Virus record (IMG/VR): IMGVR_UViG_3300029319_000077 | Coordinates: 1 to 51,907 of that record | Direction: 5' to 3' (one strand) | Length of the DNA: 51,907 nt | Source of the DNA: a virus | Shown here: positions 19,852-33,782 of the stretch, piece after piece | How the letters are laid out: each line of letters begins with the position of its first letter | How positions within the stretch are numbered: position 1 is the first letter of the stretch | Made by a program: the position numbers and the translations under genes | Notes under the pieces: generated by a model | Told to the model about the DNA's origin: nothing | The model's database searches: none | What the model saw: the letters and a program-made list of their open reading frames with translations, nothing else

Positions 19852-20649
19852 TTAATTTGATTTTTGAAACGTAAGGCCCTGAACCTTTCTGTTTAAGATG
19901 TTTCTTACTTTCCAATAAGGGAAGTCTGCAAAATCCGGATGATACGCCTGAACTTGTTTAGCAATTTTTCTCGGGCCTAGTCCTCTCTCTCTGCATTTTT
20001 CGATTGTTTTTAAAACCTTTTGTTCTGCAGGGATCTCAACCAATTTCCATCTTGTTTTTCGGCCATGCTTTTCTTTCACTTTTTCATAGCCAAACGGAGC
20101 TGACCCACCAACTGCATAAGACTTCGCAGCCCAGTCAAGTTTGCCGTCGTTAAATCTATCTTTAATGTTGCCGTGTTCTATCTCGGCTACCGCAGATAGC
20201 ACCATCAACATAATCTTATTGGCCATTTCATTCATATCAAATTTTGATCGTAAACCTTTTTCTTCTTTAGGTTTTGGATAAGCAATTGGTATGTCGCCAA
20301 ATTGTTGACAAAAATATAAAGTCACACCGCAGTCTTCAAGGTGCGGAATGATGTTCAGTAGATCTGATGATGTTCTTGATAATCTATCTAAACGAGTCGT
20401 GACAACAATATCGTGTTCGTCAATAACATCGGTCATTGCTCGAGATCCTGTCCTGGTTAAAATAGGCACGGTTCCTGGTTCTCCAGCATCTTCAAAAAAA
20501 TGATCAACCGGTCTATTAAACTTTTCCTGGACAAACTCCTGGATTAATTTTTTTTGCGTTTCAAGTGAGCAGCCACTGGTTGCTTGTTCATAAGTTGAAA
20601 CACGCACATAGCCATAAATATTATTAATTTGTTTTTTTGGTGCGATCAT
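19852..20649 (-). CDS. Serine recombinase (resolvase/invertase family)
   Basis: 265 residues. The catalytic domain shows YVRVSTYEQ with nucleophile Ser18, the TTRLDRLSR motif at residues 84-92, and VLSAVAEIEHGNIKDR (the long E helix). The C-terminal part (GLGPRKIAKQVQAYHPDF, YWKVRNILNRK) is a helix-turn-helix type DNA-binding region. The size is that of resolvases and invertases rather than large serine integrases (over 450). It has a strong ribosome binding site (AAGGAGGG) and its own promoter, divergent from the early genes. Roles: site-specific integration, multimer resolution or fibre inversion; no att sites could be identified. Confidence 0.85.
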   Translation of the reverse strand: MIAPKKQINNIYGYVRVSTYEQATSGCSLETQKKLIQEFVQEKFNRPVDHFFEDAGEPGTVPILTRTGSRAMTDVIDEHDIVVTTRLDRLSRTSSDLLNIIPHLEDCGVTLYFCQQFGDIPIAYPKPKEEKGLRSKFDMNEMANKIMLMVLSAVAEIEHGNIKDRFNDGKLDWAAKSYAVGGSAPFGYEKVKEKHGRKTRWKLVEIPAEQKVLKTIEKCRERGLGPRKIAKQVQAYHPDFADFPYWKVRNILNRKVQGLTFQKSN

Positions 20650-20672
20650 GGTCCCTCCTTTTTCATTTCTCT

Positions 20673-20701
20673 ATATTAAGGTATTTTTATTTTTTTGTCT
20701 A
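20673..20701 (-). promoter_or_regulatory. Promoter for the recombinase gene
   Basis: On the minus strand a -35 box TAGACA (20696-20701) and a -10 box TAATAT (20673-20678) are separated by 17 bases, close to the sigma-70 consensus. It lies just upstream of the recombinase ribosome binding site and may be the first promoter of the whole minus-strand late block. Confidence 0.6.
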
Positions 20702-20716
20702 GTTTTGTATAAATAT

Positions 20717-20744
20717 TTGCATATTTGTGCAATTTATGTATAAT
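20717..20744 (+). promoter_or_regulatory. Early promoter with internal palindrome
   Basis: A -35 box TTGCAT (20717-20722) and a perfect -10 box TATAAT (20739-20744) are separated by 16 bases. Between them sits the inverted repeat TTGCA-N6-TGCAA (20717-20732), a possible repressor site overlapping the -35. It drives the plus-strand genes from 20784 onward and faces the recombinase promoter. Confidence 0.7.
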
Positions 20745-20783
20745 TATAAATGTGGTTATTAATTTTACAAAAGGAGGTTGTTA

Positions 20784-21257
20784 ATGAGTGCATTTTTAGT
20801 TAATCCAAATCATGTTGCAGAGATAGTTAAGTTCGCAAGCAATGAAAGACTTGACTATGCCTACAACTGTTTTACCAAAGAGAGAATAAATTGCGAGCCT
20901 AAGAATATGGTCAAGCTTTTAGCTCAAGCCAATATCGATAGCCTGGTCGCAAGATATGACGAGGATCCAAATGATTATGCGGGTTATGTTGATCAATGTT
21001 TAGAAAACCTTCCGTATGCTACGGATGGTGTTGGCGTCAGCTTGTTGGACGGCGTTGGTTATTGTCAGCTTGGAGCTGACGACATTTACAACATGCTTGC
21101 CTGTTGGAATTATCAGTGTTGCGAAGTTGACAACTGGTTCGAGACTGACGCTTACTGGTTGCATGTTTATTTGAAAGATTTGGCCGCTAGAAAGATGGCT
21201 AAAGAAGCTAACGTGCAGTGGGAATATGTTCCAAACAACGATAAGGAGGTTGCGTAA
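20784..21257 (+). CDS. Conserved phage protein of unknown function
   Basis: 157 residues from the ATG at 20784, six bases after a perfect AAGGAGG. Segments AFLVNPNHVAEIVKFA, ANIDSLVARYDEDP, ACWNYQCCEVDNW and ending WLHVYLKDLAARKMA resemble a family of small phage proteins with a 'SAF-V-HI' start and a 'C-YQ-CE' core. I know it only as hypothetical. Its position as first gene after an early promoter suggests a host take-over or regulatory role. The stop overlaps the next ATG. Confidence 0.75.
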   Translation: MSAFLVNPNHVAEIVKFASNERLDYAYNCFTKERINCEPKNMVKLLAQANIDSLVARYDEDPNDYAGYVDQCLENLPYATDGVGVSLLDGVGYCQLGADDIYNMLACWNYQCCEVDNWFETDAYWLHVYLKDLAARKMAKEANVQWEYVPNNDKEVA

Positions 21258-21403
21258 TGGAAATGATTGGTGGATATACTTTGGTTGAAAGACTTGAAAT
21301 GACTATTGAAAATATCAAGTTTCAAAAAGGTAAGGTTTTTTGGGACGATCTTGAGAAACTTGAGTTGATACTTGAGGCGCTTAAAAAGAAGGAGGTGGCG
21401 TAA
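21257..21403 (+). CDS. Small early protein, 48 residues
   Basis: The frame starts MEMIGGYTLVERLEMTIENI and ends ILEALKKKEVA. It is preceded by AAGGAGGTTGCG and its ATG overlaps the upstream stop (TAATG). The C-terminus KKEVA resembles the ends of the two flanking genes (KEVA), because each encodes the next gene's ribosome binding site GGAGGT(T/G)GC in frame. Helical; function unknown. Confidence 0.75.
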   Translation: MEMIGGYTLVERLEMTIENIKFQKGKVFWDDLEKLELILEALKKKEVA

Positions 21404-21540
21404 TGGAACTAATAGATAAAATTAAAGAATGGTTAGAAAATGAAGTCAAGGCAAACAACAAATATGGAGATGATCCTACTAACACTGCCGAAGACTTGCT
21501 AACAAAAATTAAAGATTGGGAAGCGAAGGAGGTGGCGTAA
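21403..21540 (+). CDS. Small early protein, 45 residues
   Basis: The frame starts MELIDKIKEWLENEVKANNK and ends WEAKEVA. The ATG overlaps the preceding stop (TAATG) and the strong site AGGAGGTGG lies just before it. Acidic and helical. Part of a chain of stop/start-coupled early genes; function unknown. Confidence 0.75.
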   Translation: MELIDKIKEWLENEVKANNKYGDDPTNTAEDLLTKIKDWEAKEVA

Positions 21541-21908
21541 TGGGATTACACGTAAACATTTATAAGCAAGACAGAACCGACAGTTGGTTAGGTGACGTTG
21601 ATTGCACGAAGGGTGGATTATCTTCTAAGGTGAAGGGTTTTACAGTGACTAATTGTGAGGGCCCATTTGAACCTTGTGAGGATTATCCTGCTGCTCAAAT
21701 CCTGAAGCAAACGTTTGGGTTTGGGTGTTCTTTGAAACTCGTTCCTGAGTCAAAGATTGATAACAACATGACAGCGTTTGGTGGCAACTATGCATCAACA
21801 TCTGACTCAAGGTTCGGTGAGGCTTGCAGAGAGATAATGGGTGAGGACATTGGGAATGTATACAGTCTTGGCCCTGTTGCAATACATGATAGGGTGTTAA
21901 ATGACTGA
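21540..21908 (+). CDS. Conserved hypothetical early protein
   Basis: 122 residues from the ATG at 21540, which overlaps the upstream stop and follows AGGAGGTGG. A longer frame start at 21516 would read through that ribosome site and is unlikely. Text: MGLHVNIYKQDRTDSWLGDV, later FTVTNCEGPFEPCEDYPA, and GNYASTSDSRFGEACREIMG. Several Cys (not a clear metal site). No family recognised with confidence. Confidence 0.75.
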   Translation: MGLHVNIYKQDRTDSWLGDVDCTKGGLSSKVKGFTVTNCEGPFEPCEDYPAAQILKQTFGFGCSLKLVPESKIDNNMTAFGGNYASTSDSRFGEACREIMGEDIGNVYSLGPVAIHDRVLND

Positions 21909-22392
21909 TAAAAAAATATTTATTGATATGGACGGGGTCCTGGCTGATTTTATCGCCGGGATCGAAGGTCCTGATTATTTAGATGGCATGTTGTTGGGCG
22001 AGGAAATGTATGACGACAGAAAATATGAATTTATTCACAAAAGACTGTTTAAAAACTTGCCACCTATGGAAGATATGTATGACTTGATGTTGTATATCAA
22101 AAAAACCAAGCTTGATTACGAGATCTTAACTTGCACCGGGCAAATTGAAAGACAACTCGTGCACTATGATAAGGTTGCTTGGATTAAAGAGCATGTTGAT
22201 CCTTTTGTGATTGTAAATTCTACTCTGAAGGGTAAACACAAAGCCGCTTTTGCTGCACCCAATCATGTTTTGATTGATGATAAGGCTGCAAACATCAAAG
22301 CTTGGGAAGAGGCTGGGGGCAAGGGTATTTTCCATGTCAACGCTATGCAAACCATTCTTAAATTACATAAGTGGATCAATGATGAAAAATAG
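21901..22392 (+). CDS. HAD-family 5'(3')-deoxyribonucleotidase-like
   Basis: 163 residues. HAD motif I, IFIDMDGVLADF, gives nucleophile Asp9 and general acid/base Asp11. Motif II is the Thr in ILTCTG (about residue 77). A Lys in LKGKHKAAF may serve as motif III, and motif IV is LIDDKAANI with Asp126/Asp127. Length and DGVLADF fit the NT5C deoxyribonucleotidase group. It probably dephosphorylates nucleotides, adjusting pools during replication. It overlaps the previous gene by eight bases and the next by fourteen. Confidence 0.85.
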   Translation: MTDKKIFIDMDGVLADFIAGIEGPDYLDGMLLGEEMYDDRKYEFIHKRLFKNLPPMEDMYDLMLYIKKTKLDYEILTCTGQIERQLVHYDKVAWIKEHVDPFVIVNSTLKGKHKAAFAAPNHVLIDDKAANIKAWEEAGGKGIFHVNAMQTILKLHKWINDEK

Positions 22393-22582
22393 GCTCAGTT
22401 TTGACCAGGCACAATACAAATATAAATGTATTTGTTATGATGTGTTTCGGCAATCTAATGTCGAATACCCCGACAGGGAGAAAAGTTTTATTAACGAGTT
22501 TGGTGAATGGTGTTTGCGAAATCATCAAGGGGACCCTGTCGCTAAAGTTCAACCAAACGGCTATGTCAAGGTGGGATTATGA
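22379..22582 (+). CDS. Small early protein, 67 residues
   Basis: Starts MMKNRLSFDQAQYKYKCICY at 22379 (second ATG at 22382). It overlaps the nucleotidase 3' end by 14 bases and the next gene by four. Contains FGEWCLRNHQGDPVAKV. A frame running from 22274 exists but lies inside the nucleotidase gene. Function not recognised. Confidence 0.65.
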   Translation: MMKNRLSFDQAQYKYKCICYDVFRQSNVEYPDREKSFINEFGEWCLRNHQGDPVAKVQPNGYVKVGL

Positions 22583-22953
22583 ACACAAAATTTGAAAATA
22601 TGAAATCGCAAGAACTTTTACAATACGTTTTTGGTGAATATACCCCGGATAGGTTCGTACCCTTTATTGAGAGCTCAAAAAATGATCTAGGACGCACCAG
22701 CGGTTTTATTGATACAGCTACCAATAGTAAAGTTTATCGTAGAAACTTAATTGACAAGGCCATTGAGATCAGAATGCTAGAAATTTGCGAAATTGAAAAA
22801 GAAATGCTGGAGTCACAAATCAAAACAGCAGATCCAAACGATATTGATAAACTTACACGTCAACTTGATCAGTTAGATCATCTAATAGATGAAGTCAACG
22901 AAAATGCTTTGCGTATTATCGGCGAATACGAAAAACGTAACAAGGTTATCTAA
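22579..22953 (+). CDS. Helical early protein of unknown function
   Basis: 124 residues. Starts MNTKFENMKSQELLQYVFGE; the second half is a long, charged probable coiled coil (EKEMLESQIKTADPNDIDKL, LDHLIDEVNENALRIIGEY). It is the last gene of this plus-strand set and converges on the minus-strand gene at 22946, sharing eight bases. A 12-base palindrome GGTTATCTAACC lies at the junction but lacks a T run. Confidence 0.7.
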   Translation: MNTKFENMKSQELLQYVFGEYTPDRFVPFIESSKNDLGRTSGFIDTATNSKVYRRNLIDKAIEIRMLEICEIEKEMLESQIKTADPNDIDKLTRQLDQLDHLIDEVNENALRIIGEYEKRNKVI

Positions 22954-23401
22954 CCGCTTTAGCAATAGCTATAGCATTCTCCAGGGTTCCTATGGTGTTT
23001 TGTTTTTTTAAATAACTTAATTTTTTTTGAAAAGTTTTTCCAAGCTTGTGGTTGGCCACAAAAACTGCTTTATCTATGGGTAAGCACACAAAGGCGAAAA
23101 TATCGACGTCCTTAGGATCGTAGGTGCGGTATTCTTTGCTCCCGGTTTTTTTCTTTTTAATATCCCAACGCACCCATTTATCAGTATGATGATCAAACAC
23201 ATATTCGGTGGTTTTTACTTGAATTTTGAAATTTCCTTGTTCTGAAGTAACCAGGTAATCATAGCGGCAACTCTCTCCAGTGTGTAGAACCTCATCAAAG
23301 ATCCTGGCTAAGTAACTAGCTGCTAGATATTCACCAGCTTTTCCTATTTGAATATTTCTCGTTGGCACAAAGTTTACTTTTTTGTAATAAATAAAATTCA
23401 A
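22946..23401 (-). CDS. PD-(D/E)XK nuclease-like protein
   Basis: Up to 151 residues; start uncertain (TTG at 23401 or GTG at 23368, neither with a clear ribosome site). The core fits the PD-(D/E)XK fold: IGKAGEYLAASYLARIF with the helical Glu, then CRYDYLVTSEQGNFKIQVKT giving Asp and Q-V-K. This pattern resembles the small endonuclease-like domain found in intron and phage proteins (PF11645 type, tentative). Likely DNA cleavage or repair, unproven. One of three such proteins here, besides the exonuclease. Confidence 0.65.
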   Translation of the reverse strand: MNFIYYKKVNFVPTRNIQIGKAGEYLAASYLARIFDEVLHTGESCRYDYLVTSEQGNFKIQVKTTEYVFDHHTDKWVRWDIKKKKTGSKEYRTYDPKDVDIFAFVCLPIDKAVFVANHKLGKTFQKKLSYLKKQNTIGTLENAIAIAKAVR

Positions 23402-23408
23402 TCATACC

Positions 23409-23549
23409 TTATTTACCTTGACCACGATATTTCTTGAATGAACGCTTTTTGTGTTTGTTCATTGTGGATGTGTCCGGGCGTCTACCCTGGCTTGTGCCTT
23501 TTTTTGTGTATGTATGCTTTTGTGTAAAGGCTCCAGCTTTTTTAGCCAT
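23409..23549 (-). CDS. Small basic protein, 46 residues
   Basis: Starts MAKKAGAFTQKHTYTKKGTS and ends NKHKKRSFKKYRGQGK. Very basic, no acidic cluster. The C-terminal pattern N-K-H-x-R-S-x-K-K-Y-R-G-Q-G recurs, as I recall, in small proteins of marine phages. Its ATG overlaps the upstream stop (TAATG). Likely nucleic-acid binding; function unknown. Confidence 0.75.
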   Translation of the reverse strand: MAKKAGAFTQKHTYTKKGTSQGRRPDTSTMNKHKKRSFKKYRGQGK

Positions 23550-23641
23550 TATTTTTTACCTTTTTTTAAGACAAAACGCCATACTTTTTGAATACGGCTT
23601 GATTTCATAAGTTTATGGAAAGATTTGAAAATATCTATCAT
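23549..23641 (-). CDS. Small basic protein, 30 residues
   Basis: Frame MIDIFKSFHKLMKSSRIQKV then WRFVLKKGKK. It begins directly after the stop of the resolvase-like gene (one base between) and its stop overlaps the start of the next small gene (TAATG). This coupling on both sides makes it a likely gene despite its size. Amphipathic and basic; function unknown. Confidence 0.55.
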   Translation of the reverse strand: MIDIFKSFHKLMKSSRIQKVWRFVLKKGKK

Positions 23642-23642
23642 T

Positions 23643-24071
23643 TTAGGCACACACACTGCTGTAAATTTTTGCATATTTGTGCCAATTATTTTTTAAAATC
23701 TGTAACCAGTCGTTAATCGGAATAATTGCTACTGCATCATTGTTCGCTGGCCAATCAGTATTTATCGCATGCAGTGGTATGCAGACCTCTATAGGCTTGC
23801 GGTTGTATTTGTATACCAGGGCTGGAATGTTATCGCCTGCTGACTCACAAACTTGTTGCCACCAGGGCGACTTATAGCCACAACCCTCTTTGTAAAACTT
23901 ACATTCGACTGCATGAAACGGTATTGTGAGATCACACTCGTTTTTTGTTTGATATTGGTCCAGGTTTCTTTTGGTTTGGAAGTCAATATTGTTATCAGTA
24001 AAGAATGTGTTAAGAATTTTTGCTACTTCTCGCTCAAATTGAGCTCCTTTGTTTCTTGAATTGATCGGCAT
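23643..24071 (-). CDS. PD-(D/E)XK Holliday-junction resolvase-like
   Basis: 142 residues from ATG at 24071; an upstream TTG at 24098 would add nine. The start PINSRNKGAQFEREVAKIL matches phage resolvase-like nucleases (R-N-K-G-x-x-F-E-R-E). The active-site pattern continues with KNECDLTIPFHAVECKFYKE: Asp and E-C-K on adjacent strands. Role: probably cutting branched DNA before packaging or in recombination. It heads a minus-strand set of two small basic genes and another nuclease. Confidence 0.75.
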   Translation of the reverse strand: MPINSRNKGAQFEREVAKILNTFFTDNNIDFQTKRNLDQYQTKNECDLTIPFHAVECKFYKEGCGYKSPWWQQVCESAGDNIPALVYKYNRKPIEVCIPLHAINTDWPANNDAVAIIPINDWLQILKNNWHKYAKIYSSVCA

Positions 24072-24537
24072 TACTGTTGTATTGGATTGTTTGTTCAAAT
24101 TTGCATAAAAGTATAAACCAAATGTTAAAAAATTGCGAAAAATTTTTGTGGTTTACCTCCCCTAGGTTCATATATAGAAAAAAGGGGGGTAGGGCCTGGA
24201 GCAAGAAACCTTTGCTTTGTAAAAAAGTCATTATTATTTGCGTTCAACTTAGTTTTATACGCTTGCCGACAGCTGCAATATTATATAGGGGTGTGCGGGG
24301 TCCAAAAAAAATGCAAAATCCCTGTAAAAAAGGCATTCCATAGGGGTCCCTGGCAATAGTGTGACACCTCTGCTCAGAGCTACGCGTCTAGGCATTATGT
24401 TGTTCTTTGTATCCTGGCTCTTCTTAGTCCTTTGTTTATGGGCTTTTCCGCGATAGTGCACACTAACTTGTAATTTTTTGTTTTTTTTGGGGGGAGATTG
24501 GTCGAGAGGGGCGTTGTAAGTTTTATTGCTTACTTTT
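24072..24537. other. Gap of about 465 bases without a convincing gene
   Basis: Short frames exist on both strands (for example 24255-24461 minus, with SRGVTLLPGTPMECLFYRDF) but none has a ribosome site or a recognised family. The centre is locally richer in G and C than its surroundings and has two copies of GGGGTCC (24299-24305 and about 24344). Runs of T or A flank both sides. A possible -10 box TATACT lies at about 24111-24116 on the minus strand, ahead of the resolvase gene. No tRNA fold could be drawn. It may contain a promoter, a non-coding RNA or a decayed gene. Confidence 0.4.
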
Positions 24538-25065
24538 TTATTTTTCTTTGTCGAGGTATTTTACTTTGGAAAAATTTGCTGACCTATCTAATTCTTGTAT
24601 TGTTTGCAGAAATTCCATGAAGTCCTGCGGTATAAATCTTACTAAGGTTTCAATGCTTGATAAAACTGATCCTGGATCTTTCCCAAACTTCTTGGCAGCA
24701 GCTGGCACCTCGTGTTCAAAGATTGTGAGCAATATAATTTGTTCTCCATATTCAAAACAATGAATGTTTGGTTCTATCTTTTGATAACCGTTGTCATCTA
24801 ATTCTTGGGTAATAACAGTCCAGGCTCTTTGCATCATGTTAATGCAATTGACTATGTCTTTATTTGATTTCTTGTCCAAGGCATTTTTAAACATAGACTC
24901 AGCTTTGAGAAATTTACTCATAGTATCTGTTGAGAGTAGGTGCATTATTCTTGCGCGGCCACCCCAATCTGTATAAAAGTCTTGTTCTTTACTTCTATAT
25001 TCTTTGATAAGAGTTTTTGTAGAGTCCGTGATCTCTTCGTAACGTTTACGAACTCTTGATCGCAT
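24538..25065 (-). CDS. Conserved helical protein next to TerS
   Basis: 175 residues, mostly helical. Text: RSRVRKRYEEITDSTKTLIK, SKFLKAESMFKNALDKKSNK, then NGYQKIEPNIHCFEYGEQII. No catalytic motif. Its ATG overlaps the stop of the small terminase gene (TAATG), suggesting a related packaging or regulatory role. Family not recognised. Confidence 0.7.
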   Translation of the reverse strand: MRSRVRKRYEEITDSTKTLIKEYRSKEQDFYTDWGGRARIMHLLSTDTMSKFLKAESMFKNALDKKSNKDIVNCINMMQRAWTVITQELDDNGYQKIEPNIHCFEYGEQIILLTIFEHEVPAAAKKFGKDPGSVLSSIETLVRFIPQDFMEFLQTIQELDRSANFSKVKYLDKEK

Positions 25066-25601
25066 TACAGATCTGTTGGTTTTAGGTCATCGTCAACACC
25101 AAGTAATTTACCCAGGCGTTTTTTGATGTCATCCTTATTCATGGCATCTAAGTTAGCGTTGATGTTGAGATTTTGTGTTCTGTTTATGCTCAAACCAGCT
25201 AAATTGTTTAATTCTTTGATCGCAGAGACTGAAGCGTTGTAAGAACCGTTTTCAAAAGCCTCTTCAGCTAATTTCCAAAGCATTGTGCCGGTTTTTTGTG
25301 GTGTTATAGCGTATTTTTGGGCTAATTCGTCCTGTTTTACCCTAATTGCTTTCGTAACATGCGGCATATCTTTGCCGTTGAGCATTTTATTGGCCGCTGA
25401 GGCTGGAAATTCGTATCCAGCACGTCTTGCAGCTTCAGTTTGGGCGCAAGCGCCTTCAGTATAGTGCCAAACAAAGGCTGCTTGCATTTCAGTAAGCCCA
25501 AATTCGTCATCTTTGTTGAACATTTCAGGTGAAGTAGCTAAAGATCTCTTTTTTTCTTTCGTAGATCCTTTTGGGCGTCCTGGTTTTCTAGTTTGTGTCA
25601 T
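25065..25601 (-). CDS. Terminase small subunit (TerS)
   Basis: 178 residues. A Lys/Arg/Gly-rich start (RKPGRPKGSTKEKKRS, an AT-hook-like GRPKG) is followed by a helix-turn-helix typical of terminase small subunits: LTEMQAAFVWHYTEG, QTEAARRAGYE, ANKMLNGKDMPHVTKAIRVK. The C-terminal half (GTMLWKLAEEAFENGSYNAS, ELNNLAGLS) is the usual oligomerisation part. TerS selects the packaging site. It lies with replication genes, about 14 kb from TerL, an unusual separation. Confidence 0.85.
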   Translation of the reverse strand: MTQTRKPGRPKGSTKEKKRSLATSPEMFNKDDEFGLTEMQAAFVWHYTEGACAQTEAARRAGYEFPASAANKMLNGKDMPHVTKAIRVKQDELAQKYAITPQKTGTMLWKLAEEAFENGSYNASVSAIKELNNLAGLSINRTQNLNINANLDAMNKDDIKKRLGKLLGVDDDLKPTDL

Positions 25602-25809
25602 AGCTTTTAACCATAAAGTCTAAAACTTGTATTTTGTCATTAATGTTAGTGATCTTGTCAAGATATTCTTCAATTGTTTTCACAACATGTGTGTGATCAG
25701 GTAACGTTTGCAAATTGTCTAGGAATATTTCAAGTTCATTAGAAATACAAACACGTTCGCCTTCCAACTTTTGTTTAATGCCTTGCAACAATTTTATCTT
25801 TTCAGTCAT
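25588..25809 (-). CDS. Small coiled-coil protein
   Basis: 73 residues: MTEKIKLLQGIKQKLEGERV, EIFLDNLQTLPDHTHVVKTI, ITNINDKIQVLDFMVKSY. Good ribosome site (AAAGGAGA) and a promoter 30 bases upstream. Its 3' end overlaps the TerS start by 14 bases. Helical, function unknown; possibly a regulator or TerS partner. Confidence 0.65.
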   Translation of the reverse strand: MTEKIKLLQGIKQKLEGERVCISNELEIFLDNLQTLPDHTHVVKTIEEYLDKITNINDKIQVLDFMVKSYDTN

Positions 25810-25838
25810 AACATTCTCCTTTTGTTTGTGTTGTTGTG

Positions 25839-25866
25839 ATTATATACGCTTTTATACATTTGTATA
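25839..25866 (-). promoter_or_regulatory. Promoter with overlapping TATACA/TGTATA operator
   Basis: On the minus strand: -35-like TATACA (25861-25866), 16-base spacer, -10 TATAAT (25839-25844). The inverted repeat TATACA-TT-TGTATA (25853-25866) covers the -35 region, a good operator candidate. It matches the promoter at 33160-33187 at 23 of 28 positions. It would drive the TerS operon (25809 downward). Confidence 0.65.
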
Positions 25867-25870
25867 GAGA

Positions 25871-26150
25871 CAGGGTACAGTGTACAGGGTACAGCTACTT
25901 TAAACTTTCTATTTATTACACCCCTAAATACCCCATCCAGCACCTAATAACCAATAATCTAAATGTTTACCTATTTTAGGTACACTGTACCCTTTTATGT
26001 GGTAAAACCCTTATAAACAGGGGCTTTGAGGACAGGGTACAGCTCAGGGTACAGCCAGGGTACAGGGCACAACAGAATATCCATTATTGTATAAAAATAT
26101 AAAAACAGGTGCAAAAGTGTAAATAATTACAAGTTACCAACAGGGTACAG
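25871..26150. repeat. Iteron-like cluster of CAGGGTACAG; candidate origin
   Basis: Six exact direct copies of CAGGGTACAG start at 25871, 25885, 26033, 26045, 26056 and 26141. One near-perfect inverted copy (CTGTACCCTT) starts at 25985. The longer arm GGGTACAGTGTA (25873-25884) is exactly complementary to 25981-25992. Between the copies lies AT-rich sequence. Spacing of 11-14 bases within clusters is near one helical turn. The block fills the gene-free interval 25867-26165 upstream of the TerS promoter and downstream of the minus-strand primase set. I infer a replication origin or initiator-binding region. Confidence 0.75.
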
Positions 26151-26165
26151 CCACAAGCTATACAC

Positions 26166-26426
26166 TTAATGAATGGTCCCAAATAATTCTGTTCCGGACA
26201 TGGTGTTGACAAATAATGGCGTGTCGTCCCCCATCTTTATCTTGATCATGTGGTCGCGCATAAACTCATTAGCAGCCATCGCATCTAGTTGCGCCTGCTC
26301 TTGTAAAATAGCAACACATTTTTCGTAATCATACACAACTCTCGACTTATCAGTGAGCGGATCGGAAGCGATCCCCAGGATTGCCTCATCAAAGCCATTG
26401 GCAGTTATAAAAAGTTTATTTGTCAT
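26166..26426 (-). CDS. Conserved small phage protein
   Basis: 86 residues. ANGFDEAILGIASDP, SRVVYDYEKCVAIL, ANEFMRDHMIKIKMGDDTP and LFVNTMSG resemble a short family common in phages with 'GFDDAI-G' and 'G-TP-F' ends, function unknown. It lies next to the repeat cluster. A role in replication control is possible only by position. Confidence 0.7.
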   Translation of the reverse strand: MTNKLFITANGFDEAILGIASDPLTDKSRVVYDYEKCVAILQEQAQLDAMAANEFMRDHMIKIKMGDDTPLFVNTMSGTELFGTIH

Positions 26427-26444
26427 TTTTGTAGTATACAGTAT

Positions 26445-26636
26445 CTAAGACAAGACACCGAGTTGCCAATTCTCAACTATACTCTTGGCGTAATGTATGC
26501 TCTTGTCATGTATTTTGATCACACGCTTGCGCACTCCATGATCATAAAGATCGACTTCTAAGCCCTTGTCGACCTGAATTATCATTGCTGACTTATCAGG
26601 ATCTGCGACGGTCGGCATTTCATGTTTGTTATCCAT
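26445..26636 (-). CDS. Small protein of unknown function
   Basis: 63 residues from ATG at 26636; the frame extends to 26672, but that overlaps the upstream gene. Text: MDNKHEMPTVADPDKSAMII, VDLYDHGVRKRVIKIHDKSI. Starts just after the stop of the upstream nuclease-like gene. No family recognised. Confidence 0.6.
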   Translation of the reverse strand: MDNKHEMPTVADPDKSAMIIQVDKGLEVDLYDHGVRKRVIKIHDKSIHYAKSIVENWQLGVLS

Positions 26637-26638
26637 AG

Positions 26639-27076
26639 TTATACTGTAGCAAATCTTTGGATAATTTTGCAATCTTCAGCCTCTATTCGAAAAACAGGCT
26701 CAACGTCCATGACGTCACGAGTAGTTAAAGTGCGGCCGGAATACTCAAACTTGTATGCAGCGTCAAAGTCCCATTCGTGATAGCAAAGAACATCTTTGCA
26801 TTTGAAAACCAAAATGAATTTGCATCTTGAGGTCAGCGCCAATAATCTTGCAGCTTCGATCTTTTTGTACGAGATCATAAACGGATAATCACCAAAATTT
26901 ATATGTGCTCGCTTGATTTCACACCAGGAATATTTTTCGTCACGCTCCATTAAGTAGTCCACTTTGTATTTTTTTGCGGGTAGTTTGATAAATCGACACG
27001 ACCAAAAATCTGCTAGGTAGTCAGCGATTTTTTGTTCGCTATCTAAATCTGCTTGCGTTTCGTAATGTGACCGCAT
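26639..27076 (-). CDS. PD-(D/E)XK nuclease-like protein
   Basis: 145 residues from the ATG at 27076, which overlaps the primase stop (TGATG). The active-site pattern is visible: ADYLADFWSCRFIKLP, then YKVDYLMERDEKYSWCEIKR with Asp and E-x-K, then a conserved helix ISYKKIEAARLLAL. It resembles small VRR-NUC or resolvase-like nucleases. Coupling to the primase-helicase points to replication or recombination. Confidence 0.65.
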   Translation of the reverse strand: MRSHYETQADLDSEQKIADYLADFWSCRFIKLPAKKYKVDYLMERDEKYSWCEIKRAHINFGDYPFMISYKKIEAARLLALTSRCKFILVFKCKDVLCYHEWDFDAAYKFEYSGRTLTTRDVMDVEPVFRIEAEDCKIIQRFATV

Positions 27077-29229
27077 CAATCATTACCGAAAGATCCAAAG
27101 AACGGATCGTTGTCCGGCCCTCCTTCATAGTCCAGGTCATAGACCTTCTTGCCGTTTGAGCGTCTTGGTTGTAGCCCCATATTAGTAAGCACTCGTGCTG
27201 CTTCTTTAATATCGGGCATCCTCGGATTGGAGATACCCAAATCACGCAATAGCTGAGTTACTTGCACGGGAGCAACGGCAGTAGACCCAAATTTAACATG
27301 TTGCATGATTAGATCCTCCACCGAGGAATGCGTTCTGTAAAGTTCATTTGACTCATGCAGCATCTCTCTTTCGTCAGGGGAGAGATACCAATTCTTTTGT
27401 CCTGGGGTATACATAGTCTCAGCCACTTCGGCCCACAACTGTTGCATGTCCACCCCGTGATTTACATTGATGTCTTTAACAGAAATAGTCCAAAATCTTC
27501 TATTACCGCTGGTATCTGTTAAAAACTCCTTAGCATTAACAGAAGCAAAAAAGGCTGTTCGTCTTTGATAGATAGTAAATGCTCGATCGTAAGGTAAACG
27601 CAATTCATCGCTCTTGGCCGTCACAAACGCTTTGAGTTGATCGATATCTGATTTCTTGAAGGTAGACTCTATCTCACCCAACTCAACGATCCAGTGGCTT
27701 ACAGCGCGTTTGACTGAGTCTTTATCAGAGGGATTTAAAGTAGCACCCTCCAATAACCAACCCCGATCATAGTCAGCCAGGCGTTTGAACCATAAAGTTT
27801 TGCCCAACCCCTGAGCCCCCTGGAATACTAATATTCCCTCAAGCTCCACACCATTGGGCTCACAAGCAGCGGCAACACAAGAGATCAGCCACTTCTTCAT
27901 TAACATCTCTTTGAGCTCCTCACTGTCATCAGACACAATTGAGTCCAGGAACGTTTGTAGCCTGGATGTCCCATCCCAAGGCTTCGACTGGATCCACTCT
28001 TTAACTGGATTATATTCGCGCGCCAGGATCTTCAGATAGTCCCTCACTTTCGTGTGCGGTATTCCCATCTTGATACAGCGATCTTCGATCTCCACGAGCG
28101 ACGCCTCCTCTGCAAGGTCCGAAATAAATTGCATATCCGGGATCTGTATTTGCATACGTTTCTTAATGACGTTGTATCGCACATCAATATTGTTTTGCTG
28201 CAACACACCATTGACGTTGTCCTTAGTGTTGAGGAACCGCCCAGTGGCACTGCGCTCAAAGTCGGTGTCGACCGGGACCGTCACATTAGCTAACGCAACG
28301 GCATTGCCAGTACTGGTGCGGTGGTCATTGTAGTCCCCTTGCGTGGAGGGTAATAAAACCTCGGCCTTACCACCTTTTCTCTGAATGATCTGACACGCCT
28401 TGATAGCTTCATTCTCACCCGTCTTACTATCATCATTGTCGGCAATAAATATAAAGTTGTAATCTTGTAAAAATTCGTAAATGTTCTCTGCGACAGCGGA
28501 AAGATTGTAAGCATCAAAGCAGACTATAACGGGCTGCGAGAAATCTGCATATACGCTCGCTGCTGTTGCATATCCTTCTGCAAAGTAAATAGTGTCTGCT
28601 GATTTAACAATCTCTCGACCTAACATGAAAAAGCTTCCGCTTTTTCGAGAACCAGTGAGGAAACGCTTTTGGCCATCGGCAGAGATATACTGTATGCCAA
28701 CGATCGCCGATTGCTTATCGATCAGCGGTATCATTAATAGGCCGTCAGCACTCTCTCGTAAGCCATACGACAAAACTTCTTTTTTGGTTAGGTAGGGGTG
28801 CTTCTCACATTCACGCGCAGCATTCCAAAGAGTTTGGGCCCGCTCTGCTGCTTTGGCATGAGTAGCTTCCTTCTTGATCTCAGCTTCCTTTTGTAAACGT
28901 TTAATCTCAGCTTTTTCAGCCTGGGTCATTACATGGCGTTTACTATTCTCAGGTTTCCATGTAGCTGTTGGTTGATCCATAGAGATACGATAATCACCAC
29001 ACCTACCATAAGGCACACTCTGATCCAGCCACACCTGATACCAGCCACTCATTTTTCTTTTCTTACCGTCCATGACATAAGCACGGCCAATCGAACCATC
29101 AGTGACCAGGCCTTTATTAGGATCCGGCTCCAGTCCATGGTTGCTGAGAAAGTTTAAAAAGTCAGAGCGTGGATCACCGGAAAGAGGTCTGTCAAAATTC
29201 TTAGTGGGTCTTGAAATTTTTAAACCCAT
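27076..29229 (-). CDS. Replicative primase-helicase (Toprim plus VirE/SF3-like)
   Basis: 717 residues. The N-terminal half has a Toprim core: TIYFAEGYATAASVY with Glu218 and FIFIADNDD with Asp264/Asp266. The C-terminal half is a virulence-associated-E-type helicase: Walker A GAQGLGKT at 471-478, then HWIVELGEIES, ELRLPYDRAF, RRTAFFASVN and SGNRRFWTI. Linker 100-135 is a charged coiled coil. No DNA polymerase gene is visible in the window, so the phage probably uses the host replisome after priming and unwinding at its own origin. Confidence 0.9.
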   Translation of the reverse strand: MGLKISRPTKNFDRPLSGDPRSDFLNFLSNHGLEPDPNKGLVTDGSIGRAYVMDGKKRKMSGWYQVWLDQSVPYGRCGDYRISMDQPTATWKPENSKRHVMTQAEKAEIKRLQKEAEIKKEATHAKAAERAQTLWNAARECEKHPYLTKKEVLSYGLRESADGLLMIPLIDKQSAIVGIQYISADGQKRFLTGSRKSGSFFMLGREIVKSADTIYFAEGYATAASVYADFSQPVIVCFDAYNLSAVAENIYEFLQDYNFIFIADNDDSKTGENEAIKACQIIQRKGGKAEVLLPSTQGDYNDHRTSTGNAVALANVTVPVDTDFERSATGRFLNTKDNVNGVLQQNNIDVRYNVIKKRMQIQIPDMQFISDLAEEASLVEIEDRCIKMGIPHTKVRDYLKILAREYNPVKEWIQSKPWDGTSRLQTFLDSIVSDDSEELKEMLMKKWLISCVAAACEPNGVELEGILVFQGAQGLGKTLWFKRLADYDRGWLLEGATLNPSDKDSVKRAVSHWIVELGEIESTFKKSDIDQLKAFVTAKSDELRLPYDRAFTIYQRRTAFFASVNAKEFLTDTSGNRRFWTISVKDINVNHGVDMQQLWAEVAETMYTPGQKNWYLSPDEREMLHESNELYRTHSSVEDLIMQHVKFGSTAVAPVQVTQLLRDLGISNPRMPDIKEAARVLTNMGLQPRRSNGKKVYDLDYEGGPDNDPFFGSFGND

Positions 29230-29274
29230 TTATTGTTTGCTCCCGTCAAATTTTTTTACCGTTAAATTTCTATT

Positions 29275-29302
29275 TTGCAAATTGTATATCTTTGTGTATA
29301 AT
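29275..29302 (+). promoter_or_regulatory. Promoter for the SSB/exonuclease set
   Basis: -35 TTGCAA (29275-29280), 16-base spacer, perfect -10 TATAAT (29297-29302). Within it TTGTATATCT and TTGTGTATAA are repeated exactly 10 bases apart. Just downstream TTTTACAAAT occurs twice (29302-29311, 29316-29325). The layout suggests a repressor that binds successive helical turns. It faces the primase gene, which starts at 29229 on the other strand. Confidence 0.7.
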
Positions 29303-29342
29303 TTTACAAATCATATTTTACAAATTCTGAGGAGGATTAATT

Positions 29343-29984
29343 ATGAGTTTAACTGTAAGTTCAGGTGGTGGCGAATTTGAAGTAGTTCCAGCTGGTCAAC
29401 ATAATGCGGTGTGCTATCAAATCATAGACGCCGGGACCAGGGACGAACAATACAAAGATCAACCTGCAAAAAAACGCCATTGTGTTTTTATCTATTGGGA
29501 ATTGCCGGAAGCTAAGATGGATGATGGCCGTCCTTTTATAGTAAGTAAAAAATATACCTTGTCGTTAAATGAAAACGCGGCACTGTATAAAGATCTAAAG
29601 ACCTGGAGAGGTAAATCCTTCACTACTGAAGAACTTCGTGGGTTTGATCTTAATAATATTCTTGGCATCTCAGCATCGCTTGAAGTAGAACATACTGAAG
29701 AGGGCAGAGCGCGTGTTGTTAGTGTTTTTAAACCTGACGGCGGTGCCAAACCAAGTACAACAGAAAACGAACAGGTTGCTTTTGACCTTGATGTTTATTG
29801 CTCAAAGTTTTCAGACTCAGTATCTCCGGAAGCTGAGAAAATGAATGATATTTTTGAGAGCCTACCAACTTGGTTACAAGGCATGATAGAAGAGTCATAT
29901 GAATGGCTAGCAGCGCAGAAAAATGCTCCTGCACCAAAGCCAGTTAATTTTGAGGACGAGCAAGACGACCCCTTGCCGTTCTAA
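29343..29984 (+). CDS. Single-stranded DNA-binding-type protein
   Basis: 213 residues, strong ribosome site (GAGGAGGA). The body, EFEVVPAGQHNAVCYQIIDA, KKRHCVFIYWELPEAK and KYTLSLNENAALYKDLKTW, resembles a phage replication protein with an OB-like fold. The C-terminus, NFEDEQDDPLPF, is an acidic tail ending in aromatic Phe, like the SSB tip (DDDIPF) that recruits host replication proteins. A Phe-ended acidic tail in a gene next to replication genes makes an SSB function likely. No other SSB is present. Confidence 0.7.
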   Translation: MSLTVSSGGGEFEVVPAGQHNAVCYQIIDAGTRDEQYKDQPAKKRHCVFIYWELPEAKMDDGRPFIVSKKYTLSLNENAALYKDLKTWRGKSFTTEELRGFDLNNILGISASLEVEHTEEGRARVVSVFKPDGGAKPSTTENEQVAFDLDVYCSKFSDSVSPEAEKMNDIFESLPTWLQGMIEESYEWLAAQKNAPAPKPVNFEDEQDDPLPF

Positions 29985-29996
29985 CAGTTTGTAAGC

Positions 29997-30140
29997 ATGT
30001 CCATGTACCCCTCAATTGAAAATAATTATCCGTTTTCATTGGATGTGCTTGCAGCCTATTTGCGGGAAAAGTTCATTCCTCTTTGTAACCACGAAGCATT
30101 AACTTGCTTACAGCCTTTCCCGCAATTTTATGCAATATAA
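29997..30140 (+). CDS. Possible 47-residue protein
   Basis: Frame MSMYPSIENNYPFSLDVLAA, then YLREKFIPLCNHEALTCL, ending FYAI. It fills the gap between the SSB-like and DUF3310 genes and overlaps the next ATG by 11 bases. The ribosome site is weak and the region also contains a long inverted repeat (30060-30125), so it may instead be a structured leader. Confidence 0.35.
   Translation: MSMYPSIENNYPFSLDVLAAYLREKFIPLCNHEALTCLQPFPQFYAI
30060..30125. repeat. 10-bp perfect inverted repeat, 46-base loop
   Basis: TTGCGGGAAA (30060-30069) is the reverse complement of TTTCCCGCAA (30116-30125). GTAAGC (29991-29996) and GCTTAC (30106-30111) form a second pair nearby. The RNA could fold just ahead of the DUF3310 start codon at 30130 and influence its translation, or the DNA could bind a protein. 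Confidence 0.55.
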
Positions 30141-30417
30141 ATTTAAAGAGGATCAAACTCTGAAACAAATAAAAAAATATATCGATGAAACATATCGATC
30201 GCATTATGCACAAGATAAATACCAAGCTACAGATATTATTATTGACCAAGGGCTAGGGGAGGGTTTTGCCCTTGGCAACATAATAAAGTATGTAATTCGG
30301 TTTGGTAAAAAAGATGGTAAAAGTAAAAACGATCTAATGAAGATTGTGCACTACGCCATCATCGCTTTATTTGTTTTAGAACAAGAAGAAAAGGTGGGGC
30401 AACGACTTGAACGATAA
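30130..30417 (+). CDS. DUF3310-type protein
   Basis: 95 residues. The family pattern is clear: DETYRSHYAQDKYQATDIII, GFALGNIIKYVIRFGKKDGK, and NDLMKIVHYAIIALFVLEQE. DUF3310 proteins (SaV-like) occur widely in phages among replication and nucleotide-metabolism genes; their biochemical role is not settled. Consistent with its place between SSB and exonuclease. Confidence 0.8.
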   Translation: MQYKFKEDQTLKQIKKYIDETYRSHYAQDKYQATDIIIDQGLGEGFALGNIIKYVIRFGKKDGKSKNDLMKIVHYAIIALFVLEQEEKVGQRLER

Positions 30418-30425
30418 TCTGAGGA

Positions 30426-30465
30426 GAGTCAGTAAGGGGGTTTATTCCCGTGTTGCCCCTGACTC
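30426..30465 (+). promoter_or_regulatory. Hairpin ahead of the exonuclease gene
   Basis: GAGTCAG (30426-30432) pairs perfectly with CTGACTC (30459-30465); inside, GGG from the run at 30436-30440 can pair with CCC (30456-30458), leaving TAA bulged. No T run follows, so it is unlikely to be a terminator. It sequesters the only Shine-Dalgarno-like sequence (AAGGGGG) near the exonuclease, suggesting translational control. Confidence 0.5.
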
Positions 30466-30488
30466 AAATTATAACATGGTTAAAAAAA

Positions 30489-31262
30489 ATGGAATTTAAA
30501 ATTGGATACTACGAAGATATACCCTATGAGGACTATGCAGAAATAGAAGCTTATAGATCTCACGATCTTACAACAGCTATTAAATGTCCCTACACCTGGA
30601 AATATCAAAAACCATTAACAGAAACTCCAGCCCTGTTAGAGGGCCGAGTGCAACATACGGTGTTCCTGGAGCATCATAACTTTGCCAAAGAGTTTGTGAT
30701 CGAACCTAAGATCGACAAACGCACCAAAGCCGGTAAAGCAGAATATGAAATATTTAAAAAAGAAATAGGTAATCGCAGAGCTATTAGTGTAGATCTTTAT
30801 GACACCTGCATGGAACGTCGATCAGTAGTCCAGGAATACATACCAAAGAAAACCGACAAGATTGAGCTGACGGTTTGTTTCGAGTTTTGCGGACAACCTT
30901 TTAAATCAAGATTTGACTGGTATGACAACGAACAAATATGGGATTTAAAAACATGCCGAGACGCATCAAGTCGTGGGTTTATTGCGGCCATCAACAACTT
31001 TAAATATCATATGCAAGCTGGGCTCTATGTCCATGCTGCAAGAAGCGTTGATTTGCCGTGTAAAGGTTTTTCTTTCCTAGCGCAAGAAAAAGTCCATCCC
31101 TATTGTTATGCTGTTTATGAAATGGCTCCTGAAGCATTAGAGTATGGGTTAGCACAATGTGAACAAGCCCTGGATAGAATATTGCGTTGTGAAGCAGACA
31201 ATGAATTTAAACCGTTTGGGTATAAAGAAAAACAGGTAATCGCTTTAGAAAATCTTTATTAA
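30489..31262 (+). CDS. RecE/DUF3799-like PD-(D/E)XK exonuclease
   Basis: About 257 residues from ATG at 30489; a GTG at 30450 with AAGGGGG upstream is the alternative. Motifs: EAYRSHDLTTAIKCPYTWKY, then ALLEGRVQHTVFLEH (the G-x-x-x-H motif), SRFDWYDNEQIWDLKTCRDA with the Asp and D-L-K of the active site, and FKYHMQAGLYVHA (Q-x-x-x-Y motif). This is the RecB-type nuclease layout of phage recombination exonucleases. It would resect DNA for strand annealing. No obvious annealing protein (RecT/Erf) accompanies it. Confidence 0.8.
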   Translation: MEFKIGYYEDIPYEDYAEIEAYRSHDLTTAIKCPYTWKYQKPLTETPALLEGRVQHTVFLEHHNFAKEFVIEPKIDKRTKAGKAEYEIFKKEIGNRRAISVDLYDTCMERRSVVQEYIPKKTDKIELTVCFEFCGQPFKSRFDWYDNEQIWDLKTCRDASSRGFIAAINNFKYHMQAGLYVHAARSVDLPCKGFSFLAQEKVHPYCYAVYEMAPEALEYGLAQCEQALDRILRCEADNEFKPFGYKEKQVIALENLY

Positions 31263-31972
31263 GGAGCCTGGGCCAGCTCAACGGCCCGCTCTTTATCATA
31301 CAACCAAAACACCAACAAATATCTATCACCACCTTCAACCGGTAAACCCCGGTGCATTTGTGAGAATGATGGAAATATTAAAGCATGGCCTGTTGGCAAT
31401 GGATTGACCTTACCGTAATTATGAAACTCAGTACCACCGCCTTTGTATTTACCTGTATTCAAAGGCACTACAACAGATATGTCTGCTGACTCATCATGGT
31501 GCCAGGCACCTTGTTTTTTGTCTTTCAAATTATAGTTAGCAATTTGAATGGTAGAGGCATGTGAAATTTTGCGTTGATACAAACTTATAAAAATTGGATT
31601 TAAGATTGTGTGTACTACAAACCACATAGATCTATAAAGCTCAGGGCAGTTATCACGCAAAGTTATTTCAGGTATTTGTCGCAACTTATCTTCATGTGGA
31701 TTTGGTGTAAACCCGATATGTTTTTGCATTTTTGGAATTTCGTCCATTAACATTTTGCAGAATTGTCTGCGAAACAATGGCACTCTAAAAATTTCAGGAT
31801 GTATTCTTTTTACGAGTTTATCTATTTTGGTTTTAGGCATTTTGTCCATTACACCGTCGTTAGTGCCAAAGGTAAGTAAATCGTTATAGGACTCTTCAAC
31901 AGCTTTAGCCAGGGACGGATTGACCATCCAATTGGACTGCATACTTAATAGATAATTTTTTAGCTTATACAT
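31259..31972 (-). CDS. 2OG-Fe(II) oxygenase
   Basis: 237 residues. The iron site is H158-x-D160 in GAWHHDESADISVVV and His207 in SQMHRGLPV; Arg217 in GGDRYLLVFWLY would bind 2-oxoglutarate. This is the standard double-stranded beta-helix arrangement of prolyl-hydroxylase-like enzymes. Such oxygenases are frequent in marine phages; substrates (protein, nucleotide or DNA base) are unknown. It converges with the exonuclease, sharing four bases. Confidence 0.85.
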   Translation of the reverse strand: MYKLKNYLLSMQSNWMVNPSLAKAVEESYNDLLTFGTNDGVMDKMPKTKIDKLVKRIHPEIFRVPLFRRQFCKMLMDEIPKMQKHIGFTPNPHEDKLRQIPEITLRDNCPELYRSMWFVVHTILNPIFISLYQRKISHASTIQIANYNLKDKKQGAWHHDESADISVVVPLNTGKYKGGGTEFHNYGKVNPLPTGHALIFPSFSQMHRGLPVEGGDRYLLVFWLYDKERAVELAQAP

Positions 31973-32012
31973 AGACTCTCTTGAGCCTATTTTACATGGA
32001 TGATAATTTACA

Positions 32013-32177
32013 TCAAGTTGACTTGTTTATCTCTTTTTTGTCAGAAACAAAAACATCTTGGCCCTTTAGTCTTTTTCTATTAGCACAATCAAGGGCGGAC
32101 CAGTTATCTCTGAACTTAGCAGTTCGCACGTACTCACCATCTAATTTTTCGTAAACATAATACTTAAGTTTTTTCAT
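32013..32177 (-). CDS. Small protein, 54 residues
   Basis: Starts MKKLKYYVYEKLDGEYVRTA and ends VFVSDKKEINKST. It begins inside the 3' end of the upstream gene (14-base overlap), so it is translationally coupled. Basic/charged; contains FRDNWSALDCANRKRLKGQD. Function unknown. Confidence 0.65.
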   Translation of the reverse strand: MKKLKYYVYEKLDGEYVRTAKFRDNWSALDCANRKRLKGQDVFVSDKKEINKST

Positions 32178-32475
32178 GTATCGCCACCTCCTGCTGATCT
32201 AAAAACTCTTGATAAATATCAGGGTGCTTTTCTATAAATGTATCTACTGCTTCTTTGAGATCACCAACTAAGAAAAATTTATGATATAAACATTCAACAT
32301 GTATTGATTGACCACCAATTCTAATTGGATGCTCATTTATAAAATCTGTTTTGCAAGTATCTATAAGATAACACATAGAACCTATACTATTACCTTTTCT
32401 CCCTCTTCCACTTTTTTTTCTTGACCACCACATTCGGCTATATTCAAAGCCCTTATAATTTTGTGTTTTTTTCAT
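32164..32475 (-). CDS. Hypothetical protein, 103 residues
   Basis: Start chosen at ATG 32475 (MKKTQNYKGFEYSRMWWSRK) because the longer frame to 32517 overlaps the upstream gene more deeply. Contains SKK/GRGRKG basic patch and CYLIDTCKTDFINEHPI, VECLYHKFFLVGDLKEAVDT. No family recognised. It is coupled to genes on both sides. Confidence 0.6.
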   Translation of the reverse strand: MKKTQNYKGFEYSRMWWSRKKSGRGRKGNSIGSMCYLIDTCKTDFINEHPIRIGGQSIHVECLYHKFFLVGDLKEAVDTFIEKHPDIYQEFLDQQEVAIHEKT

Positions 32476-32704
32476 TAAGCTGCTCCCAAGTAGTAAATTG
32501 TAAATATAACTTACCAAGTTTTAGTTGTGGACCATAGTGTTCACAAACTTCTAAATTAAAAAATGGTCTAGGATACTTGTAATTTCTTTTTGTAAAGTCC
32601 AACCAAACAAAAAATGACCAACAAGGTTTCCTAGAGTTTATTTGAAAACCATACTCCTTCTCCCTATTTGTAGGTCTTATAAGCTCCACAAAATAATTAG
32701 ACAT
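32453..32704 (-). CDS. Hypothetical protein, 83 residues
   Basis: Starts MSNYFVELIRPTNREKEYGF, with many aromatic residues (CWSFFVWLDFTKRNYKYPRP). The ATG adjoins the stop of the upstream gene. No recognised domain; may be an anti-host or regulatory early protein. Confidence 0.6.
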   Translation of the reverse strand: MSNYFVELIRPTNREKEYGFQINSRKPCWSFFVWLDFTKRNYKYPRPFFNLEVCEHYGPQLKLGKLYLQFTTWEQLNEKNTKL

Positions 32705-33121
32705 TTATTGGACCCCCTCCTCATCTGCATAAACAAACCCATCGATGTCAAAGTTGTCTATCGGCAGTGTTTGGCCATGAGTTTTGTAAAGCTCTTTGTA
32801 ATGTCTAGGACCAAGAGGAACCAAGAACCAGTGCTTGTCACCGTCAAACAAAACGTCACCACTTGAAGTAGATCTTAACCCCATAACGTTACCAGTTTTT
32901 TTGTTCACCGGAAGATCAGCTGTAATCTTTATCAAGTCACTGTAATCTTCGTTAACAACTGTCTCGCCATCGTAGACAAACTCGGCCTCTCTTGACCAAG
33001 AACCATTTAAGTTCTGAGTTAGATGAAAAGCTTCTCCTATAGAATTGACATTGACCTCAGCAACCTTTACATAGCCCTGGGTATTGTCACCAAATTTTTT
33101 TGCGTGAAATACTGTAATCAT
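32705..33121 (-). CDS. YodL-like phage protein
   Basis: 138 residues. The C-terminal part GLRSTSSGDVLFDGDKHWFL resembles the short RSTS-x-GD-V motif of YodL-type domains known from phages and large polyvalent proteins. Upstream: FHLTQNLNGSWSREAEFVYD. Ribosome site AAGGAGG. First gene of the minus-strand set driven by the promoter at 33160-33187. Function unknown. Confidence 0.65.
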   Translation of the reverse strand: MITVFHAKKFGDNTQGYVKVAEVNVNSIGEAFHLTQNLNGSWSREAEFVYDGETVVNEDYSDLIKITADLPVNKKTGNVMGLRSTSSGDVLFDGDKHWFLVPLGPRHYKELYKTHGQTLPIDNFDIDGFVYADEEGVQ

Positions 33122-33159
33122 TTATCCTCCTTTGTTAAAAATAAATTACCCACATACTT

Positions 33160-33187
33160 ATTATACACATTTGTATACTTTTGTATA
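33160..33187 (-). promoter_or_regulatory. Promoter with tandem TTTGTATA operator half-sites
   Basis: Minus strand: -35-like TATACA (33182-33187), 16-base spacer, -10 TATAAT (33160-33165). On the plus strand TTTGTATA occurs at 33170-33177 and 33180-33187, exactly 10 bases apart, and TATACA-N4-TGTATA spans 33162-33177. The nearest gene on the right encodes a ribbon-helix-helix regulator, which may bind here. Confidence 0.65.
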
Positions 33188-33240
33188 TATTTATTTAGCC
33201 TTATTTATAGATGAATATTTATTTGCAAATCATTGTAAAG

Positions 33241-33438
33241 ATGTATAAAATAACACCCAACATGAATGATAACGAAACAAATCTCAAAGGACGCAAAAGT
33301 CTTGCGGTAGATATTGATACCTATAAAATGCTGGAGGATATTTGCAGAACCGAGAGAAGAACCAAAATTGGCCAGCTTAGGCTGCTTATTGAGAGAGAAC
33401 ATAGTAAGATCAACGGTAGCGAATTACAGGCGGTTTGA
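33241..33438 (+). CDS. Ribbon-helix-helix transcription regulator
   Basis: 65 residues from ATG 33241 (alternatives 33211 and 33262). GRKSLAVDIDTYKMLEDICR, then RRTKIGQLRLLIEREH is a ribbon-helix-helix domain: a basic beta strand (RKSLAVDI) followed by two helices, as in Arc/CopG-type repressors. It lies right next to tandem TTTGTATA sites, so it may be the repressor of these and the related promoters. Confidence 0.7.
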   Translation: MYKITPNMNDNETNLKGRKSLAVDIDTYKMLEDICRTERRTKIGQLRLLIEREHSKINGSELQAV

Positions 33439-33440
33439 AC

Positions 33441-33782
33441 ATGAGCTATAAAGACAGGAACCTCATTGTATTTAATGAGACTTCCTCTCTTGATATGGAG
33501 CCCTGCATCGGAGTATGCACTCTTACATATCTACCTCACAAACGCTGTCAGGGTTGCGGATTATCATACGAAGATATGTATGGCGATGATAAAAAAGAAA
33601 TTAAATCCTGGATTAAAAAAACTGATGTTGAAAAAAAACTTGCAGTGATTGACGCTTGGACCGAGGGGTATTTCCCAAGACAGCGATTAGAGTATATCGC
33701 AGAAAAGAAAAACATCTCGCTCAATCAAGCACGAAAAATAATACAAGAGGAGATGATGAAAAATGCTAAACAAGTTATTTAA
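33441..33782 (+). CDS. DUF1289-like protein
   Basis: 113 residues from ATG 33441. The centre, EPCIGVCTLTYLPHKRCQGC, followed by GLSYEDMYGDDKKEIKSWIK, has the Cys-x3-Cys...Cys-x2-Cys layout and trailing helix of DUF1289 domains. These four Cys could bind a metal or Fe-S cluster. The C-terminal half adds an HTH-like helix pair (RLEYIAEKKNISLNQARKII). Possibly a regulator. Confidence 0.7.
   Translation: MSYKDRNLIVFNETSSLDMEPCIGVCTLTYLPHKRCQGCGLSYEDMYGDDKKEIKSWIKKTDVEKKLAVIDAWTEGYFPRQRLEYIAEKKNISLNQARKIIQEEMMKNAKQVI

Follow-up and report, generated by a model that had tools for sequence, protein, structure and literature searches.

What is the role of a cluster of near-identical ten-base repeats in a gene-free gap of a phage genome, with the small terminase gene on one side and the replication genes on the other? 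The window analysed here, the whole 51,907-base viral record IMGVR_UViG_3300029319_000077, carries genes for portal, large terminase, tail-fibre, serine-recombinase and replication proteins. The repeats lie in an intergenic gap of 356 bases (25810-26165), which is without a conserved gene and is kept in relatives. A first-pass annotation had proposed an iteron-like replication origin or, given the nearby small terminase (TerS) gene, a packaging recognition (pac) site. Sequence comparison together with structure modelling makes it highly probable that the gap is a phage replication origin of the P4/SaPI kind, at which the primase-helicase of the same element would bind and replication would start. 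The array would then add to the known origins of this type, and would not represent a new kind of system.

The repeat unit, CAGGGTACAG, which reads CTGTACCCTG on the strand that encodes the primase and TerS, is present in six exact plus-strand copies (25871-25880, 25885-25894, 26033-26042, 26045-26054, 26056-26065 and 26141-26150). All six fall inside the gene-free gap, as the first-pass annotation had it, and no exact copy was found outside the gap across the 51,907-base record. One further plus-strand unit with a single mismatch, CAGTGTACAG (25878-25887), overlaps the first two exact copies, and the inverted copy that had been described is indeed present on the minus strand (25985-25994), but with one mismatch (AAGGGTACAG) rather than as an exact match. 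The exact copies form two groups, 25871-25894 and 26033-26065, with an outlier at 26141. Between the groups lies a core of 138 bases (25895-26032), which we propose as the unwinding region, and a second A+T-rich spacer (26066-26140) precedes the outlying copy. Start-to-start distances are 14, 148, 12, 11 and 85 bases; the clustered copies are thus 11-14 bases apart, and their spacing is not strictly helical, contrary to the earlier description. The claim that the array exceeds chance stood: when the gap was shuffled 2000 times under a first-order Markov model, no 10-mer was present more than three times, and at up to one mismatch the record contains the unit 10 times, where 1.5 occurrences would be expected. 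The spacers are A+T-rich as stated, albeit modestly so (65% in the core and 73% in the second spacer, compared with 61% for the record). A helix stability scan of the record did not place the gap among its least stable stretches, other stretches being less stable, and the suggested check by GC skew proved uninformative, with no clear switch at the array and a skew that largely tracks gene strand.

The gap is bordered by two minus-strand open reading frames, of 86 amino acids (26166-26426) and 73 amino acids (25588-25809). TerS (25065-25601, minus strand), which we consider an unlikely ligand of the repeats, had been called the adjacent gene; it is close by, but the 73-aa ORF comes first and TerS second past the array. 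A promoter-like TATACA-16-TATAAT sequence (25839-25866, minus strand), picked by consensus scan alone, may serve the operon of the 73-aa ORF and TerS, and four bases separate it from the first iteron. In the window, the array lies 0.93 kb downstream of the gene for a 717-aa primase-helicase (27076-29229, minus strand) with Toprim_3 and VapE-like (PF05272) domains, and three small genes stand in between. Beyond the primase, a 213-aa protein of the NGO0469 family, possibly an accessory replication protein, is encoded at an SSB-like position (29343-29984, plus strand). The large terminase gene (9474-10955) and the small one (25065-25601) are ~14 kb apart, although these genes are adjacent in many phages.

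Searches against sequenced phages, by megablast with 20600-33500 and by protein search with TerS, gave zero matches. A search of viral contigs with the primase-helicase, in turn, yielded 80 relatives. Where the contigs are long enough, the exonuclease and SSB-like genes lie on one strand, and the primase, the gap and TerS on the other. The expectation that related phages would share the repeat unit was borne out for the place, but not for the exact sequence: CAGGGTACAG itself is not repeated in the relatives, whose unit has diverged to TRTACMCTR; copies of this unit occupy the same gap. When any clustered word was allowed, many of the relatives' gaps returned CAGTGTAC/AGTGTACC, ACAGGGTA or GTACCCTA. 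In relatives whose primase is 64-78% identical, pairs of TRTACMCTR bracket a conserved A+T-rich core, a unit-core-unit layout to which the window also aligns. Across 16 aligned loci the order is an iteron pair, a TTTATAAGG-like block, the A+T-rich core that includes an AGTGTAC element, GGTTATAA, GGGGTTTATA and a second iteron pair, whose units are ~14 bases apart. The core of the window contains, in primase sense, the conserved blocks TTTATAAGG, AGTGTACC, GGTTATTA and GGGGTATTTAGGGG, and its inverted iteron is the counterpart of the AGTGTAC element.

The TRTACMCTR motif had been picked on the first loci and was therefore tested in a second scan on 32 held-out loci. Their primase-TerS intervals (41 kb) contained 71 matches, against 4.7 expected and at most 12 obtained from shuffles, compared with 3 matches in the remaining 238 kb. 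Only duplicates with an identical interval were dropped, and these counts do not equal independent lineages. In larger related records, the majority of unit matches likewise fall at one place. Two features of P4/SaPI-type origins are accordingly found here: short repeated sites clustered in noncoding DNA, and iteron groups flanking an A+T-rich region, the latter with a core that is kept in 16 loci and a modest A+T excess. This conserved arrangement supports the origin reading of the first-pass annotation.

Does the array belong to the primase or to TerS? Within the close clade the two assignments are indistinguishable, the genes being adjacent; the array there even lies closer to TerS (mostly within ~0.7 kb) than to the primase (0.2-3 kb), which, like the three small genes between primase and array in the window, counts against the origin reading. 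A scan centred on TerS does not discriminate either, because the sequence upstream of TerS reaches only about as far as the primase: the records that show an array but lack a primase extend just 3-4 kb upstream of TerS, which is approximately the primase distance in the records they resemble. Other repeats were seen 3' of TerS at three loci: 14 copies of CCTACTGC in ~350 bases (L053:4732-5085), tandem units containing GTGTACCTGTGGATAACTCTGTGGATAACTT immediately 3' of the gene (L063:5064-5167), and noncoding DNA with the repeated words TCGTCACA/ATGTGACG (L075:5819-6052).

More distant phages, with primases that are 30-34% identical, separate the two genes. Each of several such phages has its own iteron array in a noncoding gap 3' of the primase: eight copies of GGTGACCA in Klebsiella phage KA2-1, a GGTGACCA/GGTGACTA array in Escherichia phage ep3, seven copies of GGTGACA in Burkholderia phage Mica, and six copies of AGTGCAACC in Acinetobacter phage Alexa. 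For several distant relatives the array is directly 3' of the primase, within ~0.4 kb. In ep3 and Alexa, TerS does not follow until 2.0-2.5 kb past the array, with activator and lysis genes in between. No clear iteron array was found in the loci examined of FoX1, PPpW-3 and Mano; the A+T-rich gap before the late activator of Pseudomonas phage PPpW-3 (L089:13493-13828) holds ATACAGGTAT palindromes instead.

The same association recurs at primase loci in bacterial genomes. In 11 of 34 such loci, the 600 bases past the primase stop outranked every other part of the locus for repeat clustering (~0.5 loci would be expected were all windows alike); in the other 23 they did not rank first. A Tatlockia element has nine copies of CAGGGTAT 3' of its primase, a Stutzerimonas element a GGTGAAC array, and a Burkholderia element nine copies of AGGGACC (iteron CAGGGACCA); other bacterial iterons in this position include AGTAGAG (Thauera) and TGTCACA (Dysosmobacter). 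Among the tested downstream ORFs of the Tatlockia, Stutzerimonas and Burkholderia elements there were zero terminase matches, and the matches obtained were to histidine kinase, Arc-like, ribbon-helix-helix and antirepressor proteins. Terminase genes are nearby at two other bacterial loci (L169 and L172). In Pseudomonas luteola, twelve copies of ATCCACC (L158:9236-9521) lie 1.6-1.9 kb 3' of a VapE-type primase, farther away than at the other loci.

On these comparisons the array goes with the primase and not with TerS, because distant phages and bacterial elements keep clade-specific arrays 3' of a homologous primase with no adjoining terminase. The pac proposal, or a set of cosB-like repeats bound by TerS, fares poorly by the same evidence: the array does adjoin TerS in the window, where TerS is the second gene past it, and in the close clade the two stay within ~0.7 kb of each other, but where the primase lies apart from TerS the array does not stay with TerS. 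In ep3 and Alexa it remains 3' of the primase while TerS is kilobases away, and the three bacterial elements have primase-linked arrays with no terminase match among the downstream ORFs tested. We regard a packaging site as extremely unlikely.

The downstream genes raise a different question, namely whether the repeats are operators through which a phage regulator or TerS controls the operon of the 73-aa ORF and TerS. The promoter-like sequence beside the first iteron would suit such an arrangement, as would the distant phages, in which the array is likewise ahead of a late gene: in ep3, KA2-1 and Mica, a late transcriptional activator directly follows it. However, the layout, with an iteron group on each side of a conserved A+T-rich core of ~140 bases, is unlike that of a simple operator, and the genes downstream of primase-linked arrays differ widely and include host-like ones. 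Control of the operon as the sole function of the array is very unlikely.

If the array is an origin, which protein reads the iterons? A full-length model of the primase-helicase, from a shallow alignment, reached a pLDDT of 62 and was of insufficient quality in the helicase region; we used a second model, of residues 330-717 (mean pLDDT 86). Its C-terminus shows the element order of a winged helix (helix, strand, helix, helix, strand, strand), and this predicted domain (approximately residues 636-701; 27127-27324, minus strand), aligned to 7pds, is our candidate iteron binder. Among solved structures the model comes closest to PriRep1, determined together with double-stranded DNA (7pds; Foldseek E 1.6e-19), which VIA-align superimposes with Z 25.7 across 362 residues, the winged helix included; scores were clearly lower for NrS-1 (Z 15.1) and for the SaPI5 primase-helicase (Z 13.1). 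In a sequence search against the PDB, 7pds was also the sole match. Judged by domain match and fold only, the initiator would be a primase-helicase with a C-terminal DNA-binding domain, and both this modelling and the arrays 3' of homologous primases add to the case for an origin.

It is also conceivable that the locus is an origin but that the iterons are read by another protein, either the 213-aa NGO0469-family protein or a host initiator. The NCBIfam name of the NGO0469 family is phage replication initiation protein, and its member here, encoded divergently from the primase, is conserved beside it in the close clade. The family was nevertheless not found in four complete reference phages with arrays 3' of the same primase, in a search for which the window's own record served as the positive control, or in the examined loci of bacterial elements with such arrays. 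We consider this protein the less likely ligand because it was not found in the four array-bearing reference phages. A host initiator is disfavoured by the lack of any TTATNCACA DnaA-box-like site within 25.5-26.5 kb. Recognition by either is quite unlikely.

For the primase-helicase as initiator, a simple sequence of events can be envisaged. Its winged helix would bind the CTGTACCCTG iterons on either side of the A+T-richer core, and helicase hexamers would load there, open the core duplex and then travel outward, giving a bidirectional start. The Toprim primase domain of the same protein would prime synthesis; Toprim and helicase are joined in one protein and, therefore, a separate helicase loader may be unneeded. 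It is possible, though rather doubtful, that the origin has a second role, with the bound initiator turning the downstream operon on or off through the iterons that adjoin the promoter-like sequence (25839-25866). If true, the start of replication would be coupled to packaging or late genes, and the distant phages with an array before the late activator would provide a second case of such coupling.

For most uncultured phages, to our knowledge, the origin of replication is not known. Once recognised, a single site of this kind is ordinary, and its value lies mainly in comparison. A rule for finding origins could be to inspect the noncoding gap 3' of a VapE-type primase-helicase for an array of short repeats. 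In addition, primase C-terminal domains and their iterons form a paired series (CAGGGTAC, CAGGGTAT, CAGGGACC, GGTGACC, GGTGAAC, TGCAACC and CTGTCACA), which could reveal the recognition code of the primase winged helix.

How does the locus compare with known systems? Like the window, P4 combines a primase-helicase (alpha) with short noncoding repeats, and its crr type 1 repeats, TGTTCACC as read from the annotated P4 record, lie directly 3' of alpha; a near-P4 repeat, GTTCACC, is found 3' of a VapE-type primase in Stutzerimonas (L161). The likeness of alpha to the window primase is one of gene and repeat plan. One array was found in the window, whereas in P4 the cis-acting sequences are split between crr and an ori some distance away; P4 is also a satellite, while the window element carries its own structural genes and has CTGTACCCTG as its unit. 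The SaPI protein PriRep1 is closest to the window primase in solved structure, C-terminal domain included, and SaPI iterons are located 3' of the helicase gene and recognised by the C-terminal domain (PMC7581432). The primases of SaPIbov1 and SaPI5 are of the AEP family (PMC7581432), whereas the window protein has a Toprim domain; the iterons differ as well, and the window array is 0.93 kb from the helicase gene and does not directly follow it. The Jilinvirus phages (ep3 and KA2-1-like), Mica and Alexa share with the window a homologous primase-helicase (30-34%) followed by an intergenic iteron array, which has no origin annotation in the sequence records examined. Their iterons are GGTGACC/GGTGACA or TGCAACC, in both orientations, and their arrays precede activator and lysis genes, while that of the window precedes TerS. 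Taken with the window, these phages would extend the initiation mode of the P4 and SaPI satellites to ordinary tailed phages.
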